Shown here one piece after another: positions 3,302 to 61,434 of a stretch of DNA of 64,000 nt; positions within the stretch are counted from its first letter, which is position 1; every line of letters begins with the position of its first letter. Both the position numbers and the translations under genes were made by a program. The DNA is taken from NCBI GenBank assembly GCA_017623655.1, contig JAGAON010000009.1, positions 62,001-126,000 on the forward strand, read 5' to 3'. Under the pieces are notes generated by a model. It was not told the DNA's origin. It saw nothing but the letters and a program-made list of their open reading frames with translations, and did no database searches. Source of the stretch: Prevotella sp. Its GTDB lineage: Bacteria > Bacteroidota > Bacteroidia > Bacteroidales > Bacteroidaceae.

Positions 3302-3699
3302 GTTTCTTGGGCCGTAATTTTGACTTGAATCCGATGGTGTCCCGCAATGGGCTCTAACCGCCTGGTAATCAATGCCGGAAAGAGGTGGATGTAATCAGCA
3401 CCCTTTTACCGTGTAAACAGCACCTGATTGCGGAGTGATTAGCACCTGATTACAGCGTAATCAGCACCCTTTTGCATGGAACCACGATACTGTCATGATT
3501 TCGCCGGACTTAATGTCGTTTGAATGATGATGTGAGATTCTAATTGTTTCTACTTCTGCAAAATTAGTAAAACTTTTCAAAAGACCAACACAAATAGCCA
3601 TTTTTCTTTCTCTTTTGGCTCTTTTATTTGTCAAATATCATGTTTTGTTATTTTTTTTATGTAACTTTGTAGCCAATTAAACATAACAAAAATCACATA
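3302..3699. other. Divergent intergenic region with a family A element
   Basis: This 398-bp gap separates the divergent polysaccharide gene and the orphan gene at 3700. It holds the 88-bp family A element at 3391-3478 and an AT-rich stretch leading to a Bacteroidetes-type -7 box (TAACTTTG) at 3662-3669 for the plus-strand gene. No convincing -33 TTG sits at the right distance. No ORF worth keeping was seen. Confidence 0.7.
3391..3478. repeat. Family A element, copy 1 (4 x 22 bp)
   Basis: Four contiguous 22-bp units begin at 3391, 3413, 3435 and 3457. Each is a near-palindrome of the form GTAATCAG-CAC-CTGATTAC, or the variant with CCTTTTAC as right arm, followed by about 3 variable bases. All four have the CACC-type centre. 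The same 88-bp architecture recurs at 6864, 26805 (degraded), 32824, 41658, 56097 and 61020. Confidence 0.9.
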
Positions 3700-5173: not shown

Positions 5174-6706
5174 ATGATTGATGTAATTATAGCTGTCGCA
5201 GCCCTTATCATTGGGGGACTGGGAGGCTACCTGATTTTCAGATATGTAATCAAGGGGAAATACAATGAGATGGTTGCCAGCGCCGAAAAGGCCGCGGAAG
5301 TGTTGAAAGAAAAGAAACTTCTTGAAGTAAAAGAGAAGTTCATCAACAAGAAAAGCGAGCTGGAGCGTGAGGTACAACAGCGTAACCAGAAGATACAGCA
5401 GACCGAAAACCGCCTTAAACAGCGTGAGATAAACCTCAACCAGAAGCAGGAAGACCTCGGAAAACGCAATCAGGAACTGGAGCAGCAGCACCAGCGCATA
5501 GAGAACGAGAGGAAACTTCTCGCCCTGAAAGAGCAGGAGTTGGCCAATATGCAGCAGAAGGAGCGCGAGAAACTGGAACAGCTTTCCGGCCTGTCTGCCG
5601 ACGAGGCGAAGGCAAGACTCATCGAAAGCCTGAAAGACGAGGCACGCACCAATGCACAGAGTTACATCAACGAGATAATGGACGAGGCAAAGATTAACGC
5701 CAACAATGAGGCGAAGAAGATTGTCATCAAGACCATACAGCGTGTCGCTACCGAAACGGCGATAGAGAATTCCGTAAGCATTTTCCACATAGACAACGAC
5801 GAAGTGAAAGGCCGTATCATCGGTCGCGAGGGCAGAAACATACGTGCTTTGGAGGCAGCGTGCGGCGTTGAGATTGTGGTTGACGACACACCGGAGGCTA
5901 TTGTCATCTCAGCCTTCGACCCAATACGCCGTGAGACGTGCCGGCTTGCGCTTCACCAGCTTGTGACAGACGGCCGAATACACCCCGCCCGCATCGAGGA
6001 AGTGGTGGCAAAGGTAAAGAAACAGCTTGAGCAAGAGATTATAGAGACAGGCAAACGCACCACCATCGACCTTGGAATACATGGTCTTCACCCGGAACTC
6101 GTGCGCATTGTCGGAAAGATGAAGTACCGTTCCAGCTACGGACAGAACCTGCTTCAGCACGCCCGCGAGACCGCCAACCTCTGTGCGGTGATGGCTTCCG
6201 AGCTCGGACTGAACCCGAAGAAGGCGAAGCGTGCGGGTCTTTTGCATGACATAGGCAAGGTGCCTGACGAGGAAAGCGAGCTGCCTCACGCCCTTTACGG
6301 TGCCAAGATAGCGGAGAAATACAAGGAGAAGGCAGAGATATGCAATGCTATCGGCGCACACCATGACGAGATGGAGATGACCTCTCTCATCGCTCCCATC
6401 GTGCAAGTGTGTGACGCTATCTCCGGCGCACGCCCCGGTGCACGCCGTGAGATAGTGGAGGCCTACATCAAACGTCTCAATGATCTTGAAGCAATCGCCA
6501 TGAGTTATCCCGGCGTTACAAAGACTTACGCCATACAGGCAGGCCGCGAACTGCGCGTGATAGTCGGCGCGGACAAGATGAGTGACGCCGAGACCGAGAG
6601 CCTGTCATCAGAGATTGCCACCAAGATACAGAACGAGATGACGTATCCGGGACAGGTAAAGATTACCGTAATACGCGAGACACGCAGCGTTGCCTACGCC
6701 AAGTAA
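5174..6706 (+). CDS. rny: Ribonuclease Y
   Basis: 510 residues, the standard length. An N-terminal membrane anchor (residues 2-22) is followed by a long charged coiled coil (about 30-170). The KH domain shows [15 protein letters not shown] near residues 214-228. The HD domain has the metal-binding HD in [11 protein letters not shown] near residue 360 and AHHDE soon after. The enzyme is a membrane-bound endoribonuclease that starts mRNA turnover. Domain order is complete and no key residue is missing. A hairpin at 6732-6771 follows the stop and probably ends the transcript. Confidence 0.97.
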
Positions 6707-6863: not shown

Positions 6864-6951
6864 GTAAAAGGGTGCTGATTACGCTGTAATCAGCACCTGA
6901 TTGTATCGTAATCAGCACCTGTTTACAGTGTAATCAGCACCCTTTTGTTTT
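6864..6951. repeat. Family A element, copy 2 (4 x 22 bp)
   Basis: Units begin at 6864, 6886, 6908 and 6930. The first has the GGTG-type centre and the other three the CACC-type, so the two ends face each other as an inverted pair (AAAAGGGTGCTGATT against AATCAGCACCCTTTT). Confidence 0.9.
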
Positions 6952-14597: not shown

Positions 14598-14775
14598 GAA
14601 ATATCGGCATTTTTGCGTATTTTGACCGTCACGAAACAGAAAACTCATTCTGCCGCGTTAAATCGGCTTCCGCCTGACGATTGCCCGGTTTTAGGCAACA
14701 AGGCGTCAGAACGCCCGTAAACGGGGAAAAATCAAATCGCTATTTTCCGCATTATGATTTACCGCCGCTTTCTGT

Positions 14776-14863
14776 GTAAAAAGGCCGCTTTCACGGTGTA
14801 ATATGGTGCCGATTACACCGTGATTTGCCGCTGATAACCGTGCGACAGCATTGCTTTCCTGCG
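14776..14863. repeat. Degraded family A-like element
   Basis: Four 22-bp steps can be laid from 14776: the first (GTAAAAAGGCCG...) and second (GTAATATGGTGCCGATTAC) are recognisable, the third is weak and the fourth very weak. Reported as a probable decayed copy. Confidence 0.45.
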
Positions 14864-26804: not shown

Positions 26805-26892
26805 ATGAAAAGGCAACGGTGACAATGCAAAACGGTGCCGATAACAACGTAAACAGGTGCTGATCACAATGTAAAAGGGTGCCTTTTACTTT
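26805..26892. repeat. Family A element, copy 3 (partly degraded)
   Basis: 22-bp steps start at 26805 (weak), 26827, 26849 and 26871. The last three have GGTG-type centres (for example AACAGGTGCTGATCAC). Confidence 0.75.
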
Positions 26893-27097: not shown

Positions 27098-27480
27098 AGT
27101 CCTGAAAGGACGGCATATCACAGTCTCTTGCACAGTATCTATTCTTGTGTTCCAATGCGGTGAAGTCCTGAAAGGACGGCATATCATAGCCCGGTGCGTA
27201 AGCGCCGGGTTGCGATGTCATTACCGGTAAAACGTATTGGAACCCCGAAGCCGGCAGGCGAGGAGCACAACGTGCGACGAGGGGTGAAAACATCCCTTGT
27301 CGTTTACTATATAAAAAAAGGAGCGCATTTTAGGGATATATCCATTTCTTTGTGTTACACCCCTCGGCGTCCTGCGGACACCTCGCCTGCCGGCTACGGG
27401 GTGCCAACACCATTTTCGGCCAACACTTTTTACCCGGGGTTTACACCCCGGGCTGTAATATTTCGCCCTTTCAGGGCTCA
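27098..27480. repeat. Family C two-armed element, copy 1
   Basis: The left arm (to about 27290) and the right arm (27352-27480) are imperfect inverse copies. Each contains three small hairpins: CCTGAAAGG type, CCCGG...CCGGG type, and a longer stem with AACCCCG and CGAGGGGT bases enclosing a small variable hairpin (GCAC-aac-GTGC on the left, GTCC-tgc-GGAC on the right). The outer part of the left arm is duplicated: AGTCCTGAAAGGACGGCATA at 27098 and again near 27164. Confidence 0.85.
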
Positions 27481-27500: not shown

Positions 27501-27698
27501 CACTGCCGCCCGCAAACGGCAACGACCTTATACCTACAACCCATAACCAAAAACCCTTTCATGACTCACTGCCGCCCGCAAACGGCAGCAACCTTATACC
27601 TACAACCCATAACCTAAAACCCTTTCAAGACTCACTGCCGCCCGCAAACGACAGCAACCTTATACCTACAACCCATAACCTAAAACCTACAAGAAAAC
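27501..27698. repeat. 66-bp tandem repeat, three units
   Basis: Units begin at 27501, 27567 and 27633, each with CACTGCCGCCCGCAAACG near the start, then CCTTATACCTACAACCCATA and AACCCTTTCA. The units are more than 90 percent alike. The T-A-C-C-T rich part resembles the family F palindromes at 29453, 46026, 54662 and 62404. Confidence 0.9.
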
Positions 27699-32703: not shown

Positions 32704-32780
32704 TTGTAGGGACGCACCTTGGTGCGTCCGCCGATACCGTCAATGCGCATTTTTCGGACGCACCGAGGTGCGTCACAACA
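32704..32780. repeat. Family B twin palindrome, copy in composite 1
   Basis: TTGTAGGGACGCACC-TTGGTGCGTCC and a facing CGGACGCACCGAGGTGCGTC enclose a spacer of about 23 bp. The whole is part of a 208-bp composite with the family A element at 32824-32911. It is an inverted copy of 41658-41862. Confidence 0.88.
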
Positions 32781-32823
32781 TGAAGGCAAGCCATTCCCGC
32801 CAGTAGGCACGGCGGGGTGCAAA

Positions 32824-32911
32824 ACAAAAGGGTGCTGATTGCGATGTAATCAGCACCCTTTTACCGTATAATCAGCACCTGATTGCAGTGTAATCAGCAC
32901 CCTTTTACAAC
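32824..32911. repeat. Family A element, copy 4 (4 x 22 bp)
   Basis: Units start at 32824, 32846, 32868 and 32890. The first has a GGTG centre and the rest CACC. The first two make a perfect hairpin of AAAAGGGTGCTGATT against its inverse. Confidence 0.92.
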
Positions 32912-32995: not shown

Positions 32996-33300
32996 AAAGC
33001 CTTGAAAAGGCGACATAACACAGCCCAGTGCGTAAGCGCTGGGTAAACCTGGGCATTCGGAAACGCCATTGGAACCCCGAAGCCGGTAGGCGAGATGCCC
33101 GGAGGGCAGCGAGGGGTGAAAATTAGTCACGCTATCTATAATACATTTCCTTCTGTACCGGCAGTGACTTATGACACCCCGCAACGACATTCTGTCGTCA
33201 CGCCTGCCGGCTTCGGGGTTTCCTATACCTTAATTACCGCCCAAAATAATACCCAGGGTTTGCACCCTGGGCTGTGTTATGTCGCCTTTTCAAGGCTTTT
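32996..33300. repeat. Family C two-armed element, copy 2
   Basis: The left arm starts with GCCTTGAAAAGGC, then CCCAGTGCGTAAGCGCTGGG, then AACCCCG...TGCCC-gga-GGGCA...CGAGGGGT. The right arm gives the inverse order with ACACCCCG, GACA-ttc-TGTC, CGGGGTTT, CCCAGGGTTTGCACCCTGGG and GCCTTTTCAAGGC. Small stems differ from those of copies 1 and 3 but stay paired. Confidence 0.88.
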
Positions 33301-41657: not shown

Positions 41658-41745
41658 GTAAAAGGGTGCTGATTACACTGCAATCAGGTGCTGATTATAC
41701 GGTAAAAGGGTGCTGATTACGATGTAATCAGCACCCTTTTGTTTT
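41658..41745. repeat. Family A element, copy 5 (4 x 22 bp)
   Basis: Units start at 41658, 41680, 41702 and 41724. Three have GGTG centres and the last CACC, the mirror of copy 4 as expected for an inverted copy. Confidence 0.92.
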
Positions 41746-41784
41746 GTACCCCGCCGTGCCTACTGCCGGGAATGGTTCGCCTTC

Positions 41785-41862
41785 ATGTAGGGACGTACCT
41801 TGGTGCGTCCGAAAAATTCGCATTGACGGTATCGGCGGACGCACCAAGGTGCGTCCCTACAT
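41785..41862. repeat. Family B twin palindrome, copy in composite 2
   Basis: ATGTAGGGACGTACCTTGG and facing CCAAGGTGCGTCCCTACAT ends, with a spacer of about 23 bp that is the reverse complement of the spacer in the copy at 32704, with one or two changes. Confidence 0.88.
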
Positions 41863-56002: not shown

Positions 56003-56096
56003 GGCTGTTGGTTGGAAAACTGTTTTCTGCATTAGTTCCATCGTTTGGAAACCGTGTCTGTAACCGGCTGACAGACAGGGACTGCAAGAGGCGATT

Positions 56097-56184
56097 GCAA
56101 TCAGCACCTGATTACAGTGCAAACAGGTGCTGATTACCGTGTGAACTGGTGCTGATTGCAGTGTGAACAGCACCTGATTGCGTG
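56097..56184. repeat. Family A element, copy 6 (4 x 22 bp)
   Basis: Units start at 56097, 56119, 56141 and 56163 with centres CACC, GGTG, GGTG, CACC. A lone half-unit TTATCAGCACCCGGTTATC at 56226-56244 overlaps the stop of the DUF3737 gene. Confidence 0.92.
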
Positions 56185-60940: not shown

Positions 60941-61019
60941 ATTTTATTTCAAGGTAAGTTACGACAATCCGTAACACACTATATAACAGGCCGATACACA
61001 AAGGCAAAAAGATGCCGCC

Positions 61020-61107
61020 GCAATCAGCACCTGTTTGCATCGTAATCAGGTGCTGATCACACAGTAAAAGGGTGCTGATTGCAGTGTAATCTGGTGCTGA
61101 TAGCGAG
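61020..61107. repeat. Family A element, copy 7 (4 x 22 bp)
   Basis: Units start at 61020, 61042, 61064 and 61086, with centres CACC, GGTG, GGTG, GGTG. A family C element begins 19 bp after the last unit. Confidence 0.92.
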
Positions 61108-61126: not shown

Positions 61127-61434
61127 AAGCCCGGAACGGGCGACATAATACAGCCCGGTGCGTAAGCGCCGGGTAAGCATGGGCACTCGGAAACACCATT
61201 GGAACCCCGCAGCCGGCAGGCGAGGTGGCCAAAGGCCGCCGAGGGGTAAGGAAACAAGAGGGCAATAGAACAAAAAGGCGACACGGCAAAAAGGCGGACA
61301 AGGCATAACACCCCTCGTCGCACTCCGTGCTCCTCGCCTGCCGGCTACGGGGTGCCAATACGTTTTATCGCCCGATACAATTAAACCCAGCGCTTACGCA
61401 CTGGGCTATACTCTGTCACCCCTTTGGGGTTCGA
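61127..61434. repeat. Family C two-armed element, copy 3
   Basis: Left arm: GCCCGGAACGGGC, CCCGGTGCGTAAGCGCCGGG, AACCCCG...GGCC-aaa-GGCC...CGAGGGGT. Right arm: ACCCCTCG...GCAC-tcc-GTGC...CGGGGT, CCCAGCGCTTACGCACTGGG and ACCCCTTTGGGGT. Same plan as copies 1 and 2 with different but paired stems. Confidence 0.88.

Follow-up and report, generated by a model that had tools for sequence, protein, structure and literature searches.

Phased arrays of 22-bp dyads in Prevotella: candidate docking sites for a DNA-binding protein

Introduction

Short palindromic sites dispersed along the chromosome include parS and matS, which are read by a DNA-organising protein and occur singly, for the most part close to the origin or terminus. 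Repeated protein-binding sites are also present in Tn7-like elements, which are known for target immunity and the TnsB sites of which are not dyads. According to excerpts of the report on ShCAST, a Tn7-like element, each of its ends has four 22-bp TnsB sites, these being unevenly and nonsymmetrically spaced (PMC9371665). REP/BIME sequences, as described in excerpts of PMC2817692 and PMC8049555, are persistent intergenic palindromes, present at around a hundred or more per genome, with a mosaic structure and alternating orientation; passages in one of these papers (PMC8049555 or PMC2817692) have BIMEs binding gyrase and IHF, with a link to chromosome organisation. In Porphyromonas gingivalis the BrickBuilt MITE, in the excerpted description (PMC4596501), has 23-nt direct repeats, present 1 to 22.8 times, together with a leader and a tail, which carry IS5-like terminal repeats, the element being present in 19 copies; the same excerpts mention, without giving their sequence, 22-nt tandem repeats of strain W83 (PMC4596501).

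Results

The DNA analysed here, referred to as the window, is a stretch of 64,000 nucleotides (C5:62001-126000) from a Prevotella MAG, G000, the assembly of which comprises 1.93 Mb and is 60% complete. An original prediction had described seven elements in the window, each of which does split into four 22-bp units and then end; the decayed first unit reported at 26805-26892 was seen again, and an eighth, decayed array at 14754-14841 extends the earlier list. A unit consists of a 19-bp dyad, i.e. two 8-bp arms separated by CAC or GTG as the 3-bp centre, followed by a spacer of 3 bp that is partly fixed in G000 (first base A in 67%, last base T in 67%). Considered as half-sites, an array has eight 8-bp words, mostly GYAATCAG, GYAAACAG or GYAAAAGG in G000, the direction of which alternates every 11 bp, with 3 bp between neighbours. 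The arrays, with their centres as C or G, and the tail motifs adjoining some of them are as follows.

3353..3390, minus strand: tail motif, 36-38 bp, left of the 3391 array (score 17.9; opposite side -21.4)
3391..3478, no strand: array, four units, centres C C C C (26, 28, 22 and 25 bits; nothing in phase outside)
6864..6951, no strand: array, four units, G C C C, located after an RNase Y gene (5174-6706)
14754..14841: decayed array, in which three units can be recognised and the first is very weak (about -12, 10, 23 and 9 bits)
26805..26892, no strand: array, four units, the first decayed, then G G G (in-phase unit scores)
32824..32911, no strand: array, four units with centres G C C C, 95% identical to its twin at 41658
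41658..41745, no strand: array, four units, G G G C, twin of the 32824 array
56059..56096, minus strand: tail motif left of the 56097 array (score 22.8; opposite side -25.8)
56097..56184, no strand: array, four units, C G G C (in-phase unit scores)
60982..61019, minus strand: tail motif left of the 61020 array (score 15.9; opposite side -28.4)
61020..61107, no strand: array, four units, C G G G (in-phase unit scores)

The window also has three elements of 300-315 bp (27164-27478, 32998-33297 and 61128-61431), starting 271, 86 and 20 bp past an array, both ends of which match Rfam Acido-Lenti-1 in inverted orientation, with 36-41 of 46 terminal bases in common. They resemble small inverted-repeat elements, an observation that bears on the nature of Acido-Lenti-1. 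A 66-bp tandem repeat (2.8 copies, 95% matches) is present within an ORF call at 27501-27687.

The original prediction named no described element with this rule, and none was found in titles and abstracts, most subscription journals being outside the search. The arrays share with parS and matS their dispersal along the chromosome as short palindromic sites, but they are multi-dyad and occur approximately every 6 kb. They are like Tn7-like ends, as excerpted, in having several 22-bp candidate protein sites, but these are dyads at an even step, no cargo or target duplication was seen, and the flanks of twin arrays are mostly unrelated. The resemblance to BrickBuilt, so far as the excerpts describe it, includes occurrence in the Bacteroidales, an intergenic location, short tandem units without spacers, and the absence of a transposase remnant inside; by contrast the array units are dyads, usually four, and 117 arrays of at least two units were found in 856 kb. 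BrickBuilt was rejected on the step, which is 22 bp with none at 23 in G000, and on the dyad nature of the units. A CRISPR array was likewise rejected, given the 3-bp spacers and degenerate repeats.

As with the REP/BIME sequences (REPINs, RAYT) of the excerpts, there are around a hundred or more palindromes, intergenic, mosaic, alternating and long-lived; the arrays differ in having 19-bp dyads at a fixed 22-bp step, in their regular spacing, and in that the complementarity of the arms is not kept by compensatory change (95 arrays). By eye, no GTAG/GGAG-type foot was recognised in the array or flank columns, but GTAG-tagged palindromes come directly after some tails. The single match to PF01797 in the 60%-complete G000 assembly (C3:292123-292467) is flanked by GCCCTGAAAGGGC palindromes, and only one of its sides has an array, of three units, at a distance of 0.6 kb; the RAYT/REP family was considered unlikely, since the RAYT next to one array carries its own palindrome. 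This RAYT-like gene locus (L052:11700-13400, G000 C3) has, in addition to the GCCCTGAAAGGGC palindromes, a tandem block of ~50-60-bp repeats.

The wider occurrence of the arrays in G000 was assessed with a matrix trained on 27 units of the window, using an 856-kb sample comprising the window, the whole of C3 and C4, and portions of C9, C6 and C7. Units of more than 8 bits numbered 253 in 462 kb (including the window) versus 6 in 164 kb of first-order shuffles. A generic detector, i.e. four copies of GYAA-N11-TTRC at a 22-bp step, tolerating mismatches at no more than 6 of the 32 positions, gave 112 matches in the 856 kb, with none in the reversed sequence and none at steps of 20, 21, 23 or 24.

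Unit number was counted for groups having one unit above 15 bits, with in-register units accepted down to -12 bits and groups omitted if they lay no more than 60 bp from the end of a stretch. The 856 kb of G000 gave 7 groups of one unit, 5 of two, 7 of three, 97 of four and 6 of five (n = 122); in 95 four-unit arrays all units score above 0 bits. Four is the commonest number both here (97 of the 122) and in G060, Prevotella sp. SUG853, which is a sister species (28 of 42 groups). The claim of exactly four units holds as a strong mode, but not as an absolute rule, and other Prevotella differ. In G001, which shares a genus with G000, the main counts are 4-6, from a list that doubles some arrays at an 11-bp shift, and in G010 the mode is five (16 of 21 multi-unit groups, at loci picked around unit matches, with end units often weak). 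In one five-unit array a 22-bp unit is perfectly duplicated, and some arrays of two units seem, by eye, to be complete, from which it follows that units are gained and lost, with four being favoured.

The predicted fixed 22-bp step was borne out: lag 22 is nearly the sole repeat period in G000 and recurs in several Prevotella. When self-similarity over 66 bp at lag 22 was compared with that at 15 other lags, windows numbered 99 versus 2 in G000, 42 versus 2 in G060, 12 versus 0 in G016, 3 versus 0 in G010, 2 versus 0 in five further Prevotella, and 0 versus 1 in other genera. Counts were 2 versus 1 in G004, 1 versus 3 in G003, 1 versus 0 in G007, 0 versus 0 in G011 and 0 versus 8 in G009, and the signal in G001 was noisier (16 at lag 22 versus 26 elsewhere, with a maximum of 6 at any one lag). 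At a looser setting, three stretches from the five further Prevotella had a lag-22 match and no other lag, and two had none. The generic detector found 42 matches in G060, 15 in G001, 11 in G016, 2 in G010 and 1 in G004, with one four-unit match (from G017) among the RNase Y loci of 29 Prevotella and a three-unit match only in one stretch of G078. It found none in 120 kb of G009, in small samples of G003, G007, G011 and the five further Prevotella, or in about 209-223 kb of other genera; reversed sequences gave none except for one in the five further Prevotella, and steps of 20, 21, 23 and 24 gave none throughout. The three-unit count in G004 (1) is below that of its reversed control (2-3), making arrays in G004 doubtful. 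Arrays need not exist in every Prevotella.

A scan of named genome contigs for a two-unit pattern, from which the source genome was possibly excluded, matched 33 stretches, 32 of them in three Prevotella/Prevotellaceae MAGs, the third apparently being G021, and one in a Hyphomicrobiaceae MAG, where the match is probably due to chance. The consensus unit, with up to two mismatches, has many matches in G000, G001 and G021 and none in the remaining 33 genomes, of 36 examined from the same genus; at this tolerance 4 of 24 genomes of the same order have a single match. No match was found in plasmids and phages with one array as query, or in viral contigs with the two-unit pattern.

The inner letters of the half-sites differ by species. 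In G016 the prevailing form is GYAATYTG, the centres being, for example, CGT or ACG; in G010 they are GYAAAAGR around TNA; and in one array of G078 they are, by eye, GCAATCTT around CGC. Such species dialects, together with a dispersed, regular and mostly intergenic distribution, would suit a mark for self-recognition or biased DNA uptake, as in Neisseria. Known uptake sequences are single short words present in larger numbers. In G000, lone units are few (7 of the 122 strong groups), and the 22-bp phasing of several dyads would have no obvious role in uptake, so that a mark of this type is considered very unlikely.

The regular spacing of the arrays is the strongest new fact concerning them: they occur approximately every 6 kb in G000, G060 and G016, the genomes in which spacing was measurable. 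On C3 and C4, spacing was determined for arrays of at least two units, one of them above 15 bits, and compared with random placement into intergenic gaps, either by length or uniformly over gaps of at least 150 bp. The whole of C3 has 43 arrays with a minimum distance of 2439 bp, and that of C4 has 44 with a minimum of 2307 bp; no neighbours are closer than 2300 bp on either, versus 6.9-10.0 expected (P 0.0007 or less per contig and null), this limit, like that of 1800 bp used for G060, having been fixed after the minima were known. The coefficient of variation (CV) of the spacing on C4 is 0.52 versus 0.83-0.84 under the null, a value as low being reached in 0 of 3000 draws. On C3 it is 0.74 versus 0.84-0.86, which is not significant (P 0.15-0.18), because C3 holds two long empty stretches; genes in these include those for SecY, RNA polymerase alpha, PEP carboxykinase, EF-Tu and a type III restriction system and, likely, on ORF size alone, rpoB and rpoC. 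In the window by itself (8 arrays), the minimum distance has a P value of 0.02-0.04, the CV one of 0.06 and the count below 2300 bp one of 0.15-0.26.

In G060, where the stretches were picked around unit matches so that the spacing sample is biased, 36 pairs have a minimum of 1801 bp, with none below 1800 bp versus 10.8 expected under the uniform null. For G016, the closed genome of a more distant Prevotella with other half-sites, ten stretches were taken at fixed coordinates, with a matrix trained on the same stretches and a threshold above the reversed control; its 24 arrays in 200 kb give 14 pairs with a minimum of 1631 bp, a median of 6.2 kb, and a CV of 0.35 versus 0.78 under the uniform null (P 0.0003). 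With a looser caller, pairs closer than 1500 bp were 1 of 82 in G000 (minimum 263 bp) and 2 of 40 in G060 (minimum 132 bp), still far under the null expectations of 19.3 and 11.2, respectively. The G001 sample has 4 pairs, too few to judge.

The positions of the arrays are mostly inherited between sister species. The comparison of filled and empty sites proposed with the original prediction gave, for collinear regions of G060 and G000 with overlapping directions merged, 11 distinct shared sites and 1 empty site; the latter differs by some 200 bp around the array, with an unreadable insertion boundary. From G060 to G000, both flanks could be aligned for 15 of 53 arrays, 11 of which are shared and none empty, with 4 at synteny breaks or on different stretches. 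From G000 to G060, a direction biased against empty sites by the choice of G060 stretches, as the converse is not, 10 of 117 arrays are shared, 1 is empty, 4 are at breaks or on different stretches and 102 are not comparable. An earlier pattern-chosen set had 9 shared and 5 leading to different stretches (L107 and L125 merely crossing a stretch boundary), and, in reverse, 4 shared and 7 leading to different stretches. Two G000 arrays have no counterpart in the less related G001, in which the G000 matrix may miss arrays.

Genes next to an array in G060 have an orthologue in G000 that is also next to an array in 24 of 32 cases, versus 6 of 52 for other genes (P 4e-9). The corresponding figures beyond the sister species are suggestive only, being 4/7 versus 13/49 for G001 and 5/7 versus 5/14 for G016 (both P 0.18), and 0/1 versus 4/10 for G010. 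In seven orthologous pairs of equal unit number the arms are 76% identical (71% in random pairs), the centres 79% (47%) and the spacers 50% (36%), and the kept orientation of the centres argues that the arrays were inherited. The near-neutral letters of orthologous arrays have drifted far, with the half-sites holding their consensus. No two of the 36 G060 arrays exceed 82% identity, close to the 80% attained when arrays were simulated from the columns, and yet single arm positions are occupied by A in up to 98% of cases or by G in up to 91%; the adherence of old, mutually unlike copies to the consensus points to selection.

Two separate observations were made on the aligned stretches. L122:1-2882 and L063:3870-6927, both of which include an array, form a patch of 94-96% identity, other aligned stretches being mostly at 74-87%, which suggests recent transfer between two Prevotella. 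The array flanks of L102, L111 and perhaps L094 map to separate places in G000, as if recombination between arrays had joined their neighbourhoods.

Within G000 there is evidence for copying. Nineteen array pairs, involving 23 of 91 arrays, are 90-98% identical, whereas arrays simulated from G000 column frequencies are at most 87% alike. In 12 of the 16 pairs listed, both of the adjoining 20-bp bins stay below 12 of 20 identities; a further three pairs have some letters of the flank or tail in common. The twins at 32824 and 41658 share a one-sided flank of ~120 bp (32704-32823 and 41743-41862; 110 of 120 identities), and 204 bp of array together with this flank is 87% identical at contig 101 of G021, from which it follows that a composite of array and repeat was copied.

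These results are relevant to the original proposal of a quantised mobile palindrome, taken here as a non-autonomous 85-bp array using GYAAAAGG outer arms as short inverted ends, with a transposase acting in trans, perhaps with Tn7- or Mu-like target immunity separating the copies, and with old copies persisting. Arrays were indeed copied or converted within G000, mostly as 85-bp blocks; the high identity of twins with mostly unrelated flanks, the immune-like distances between arrays, and the prevalence of AAGG-type (GYAAAAGG-like) outer arms (119 of 194 in G000, versus 5 of 72 in G060) are as such an element would have them. However, no excess of target-site duplications over shuffled flanks was found for words of 4-9 bp at left offsets of 0-11 and right offsets of 0-59, in 51 tailed and 40 tailless arrays; gene conversion between resident arrays would leave edges just as sharp; and, of the three members of the best twin group, one is at a position shared with G060 and another at a position shared with G021. 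Further, no copy carrying a transposase was noticed, there are no recent copies among the 36 arrays of the sister species, positions are mostly inherited, the only RAYT-type match in the incomplete assembly has a different palindrome, and the half-sites of old copies remain on consensus. Both gene conversion between fixed sites and rare transposition would fit the G000 twins, and an element of this type is regarded as unlikely, though it has to be taken seriously.

The location of the arrays was predicted to be intergenic, which applies to most: 68 of the 95 arrays on C3, C4 and the window have zero overlap with an ORF call, but 13 are mostly inside one. The ORF calls are crude, the longest ORF being taken, and some overlaps are false, e.g. 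that of the 56097 array under a TTG-extended start. Operators for a global transcription regulator, or sites for a transcription-boundary factor, between transcription units would be in keeping with this location, with the finding that none of 181 gaps of at least 150 bp contains two arrays, and with a slight preference for convergent gaps (18 of 31 occupied versus 54 of 150 other gaps, P 0.027). By contrast, divergent gaps (15 of 42) and tandem gaps have the same occupancy, 0.36, the median distance of an array is 153 bp to gene starts versus 65 bp to gene ends, and even spacing is not expected of a regulon.

The tail motif provides a further argument with respect to transcription. A tail of 36-38 bp, with the consensus AACGGCnTTTGTAACGCATTGAATTGCAAnGnGTTGTA, adjoins 62 of 115 G000 arrays, normally on one side (on both sides of 4), and the other 53 have none, so that it was dropped as an obligate part and treated as a frequent companion in G000. 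All 21 motif matches above 20 bits adjoin arrays, with none in the reversed control, a partly circular result given that the motif was learned from array flanks; 7 of 78 G060 flanks score for the tail, versus 1 in the reversed control. Three cases in the window had pointed to the one-sided tail as a promoter or operator mark; this was rejected, since over the 856 kb the tail is directed towards a gene start in 26 cases and towards a gene end in 29. Operator-type arrays are, with this independence of gene direction, judged distinctly unlikely. Directly after the tail in about ten of 27 oriented arrays there is, by eye, a palindrome like TAGGGACGCACCTTGGTGCGTCC, GTAG-tagged and at a fixed position, e.g. 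at L048:8445 and L056:8709.

Each unit could in principle be folded as RNA, with a stem of up to 8 bp and a 3-nt loop, and an array might then be a chain of four transcript hairpins, i.e. an attenuator, processing or stability element. In 95 arrays, however, arm covariation within units was no better than shuffled (z -0.5, -1.6, -2.1 and -1.8 for units 1-4), and arms facing each other across a spacer gave z values of -0.9, -3.0 and -1.0, so the units are not hairpins; correlations between distant arms (1R-3L, z 3.8; 1L-4R, z 2.6; 1L-2L, z 2.0) are taken as shared descent of subfamilies. Variation in the arms stays within an alphabet of half-sites, which is what contacts with a protein would lead one to expect. 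Rfam has seven matches in the window at gathering score (1 tRNA and 6 Acido-Lenti-1), none of them on an array. With the placement of arrays being unrelated to the direction of transcription, a hairpin chain was rejected on the grounds of this placement and the missing within-unit covariation, and RNA elements in general are highly improbable.

Discussion

The architecture and phasing of the arrays, the constraint on their half-sites, the absence of covarying stems, the inheritance of positions and the regularity of spacing, together with their presence in several Prevotella with differing inner letters, fit a selected protein-binding array better than any RNA element or known transposon. The phased protein-binding array of the original prediction is thus supported, albeit indirectly, by the constraint on half-sites, the absence of hairpin covariation and the recurrence of the 22-bp step in several Prevotella. 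That the arrays are selectively kept protein sites is a prediction from sequence that we consider probable.

In the mechanism proposed, each array would be a docking array for a putative sequence-specific DNA-binding protein. Eight half-sites of the GYAAnnnn type, alternating left and right every 11 bp, would set dimers two helical turns apart along the same face of the DNA, such that adjacent dimers could stack side by side, with four dimers likely being the usual complex in the G000 species. The complexes would be located approximately every 6 kb, at inherited intergenic places, and rarely less than 2 kb apart. Their use may most likely be structural, either as anchors dividing the chromosome into loops or supercoil domains or as nucleation points for a nucleoid protein. 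Because spacing is even in species whose half-sites are of two kinds, a structural role across the whole chromosome is the leading guess.

Overall, a phased docking array with a structural role in the chromosome is the best explanation available, with a probability of about 45%, the protein, its cooperativity and the structural role being putative. The structural role taken by itself has at most a little under an even chance. Results that argue against a structural site include the following: 23 of 91 G000 arrays have a twin of at least 90% identity, which would be needless for a static site, and the inner half-site letters change fast, which is unusual for an essential structural protein.

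The general view is that bacterial chromosomes are split into topological domains of a size of roughly 6 kb, and we know of no sequence-defined, regularly placed anchors for such domains. It may be, though we propose this only tentatively, that part of Prevotella has an undescribed system of chromosome organisation, in which putative phased multi-dimer complexes form a ladder of anchors at ~6-kb intervals and the protein and its half-site change together. If the arrays are anchors, the domain boundaries of Prevotella would be readable from sequence and could be tested by deletion. If they are instead mobile, they would be an unusual family, regularly spaced, without a detectable target duplication and with constrained half-sites. 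On either reading, the arrays would be a strong bait for an undescribed DNA-binding protein.
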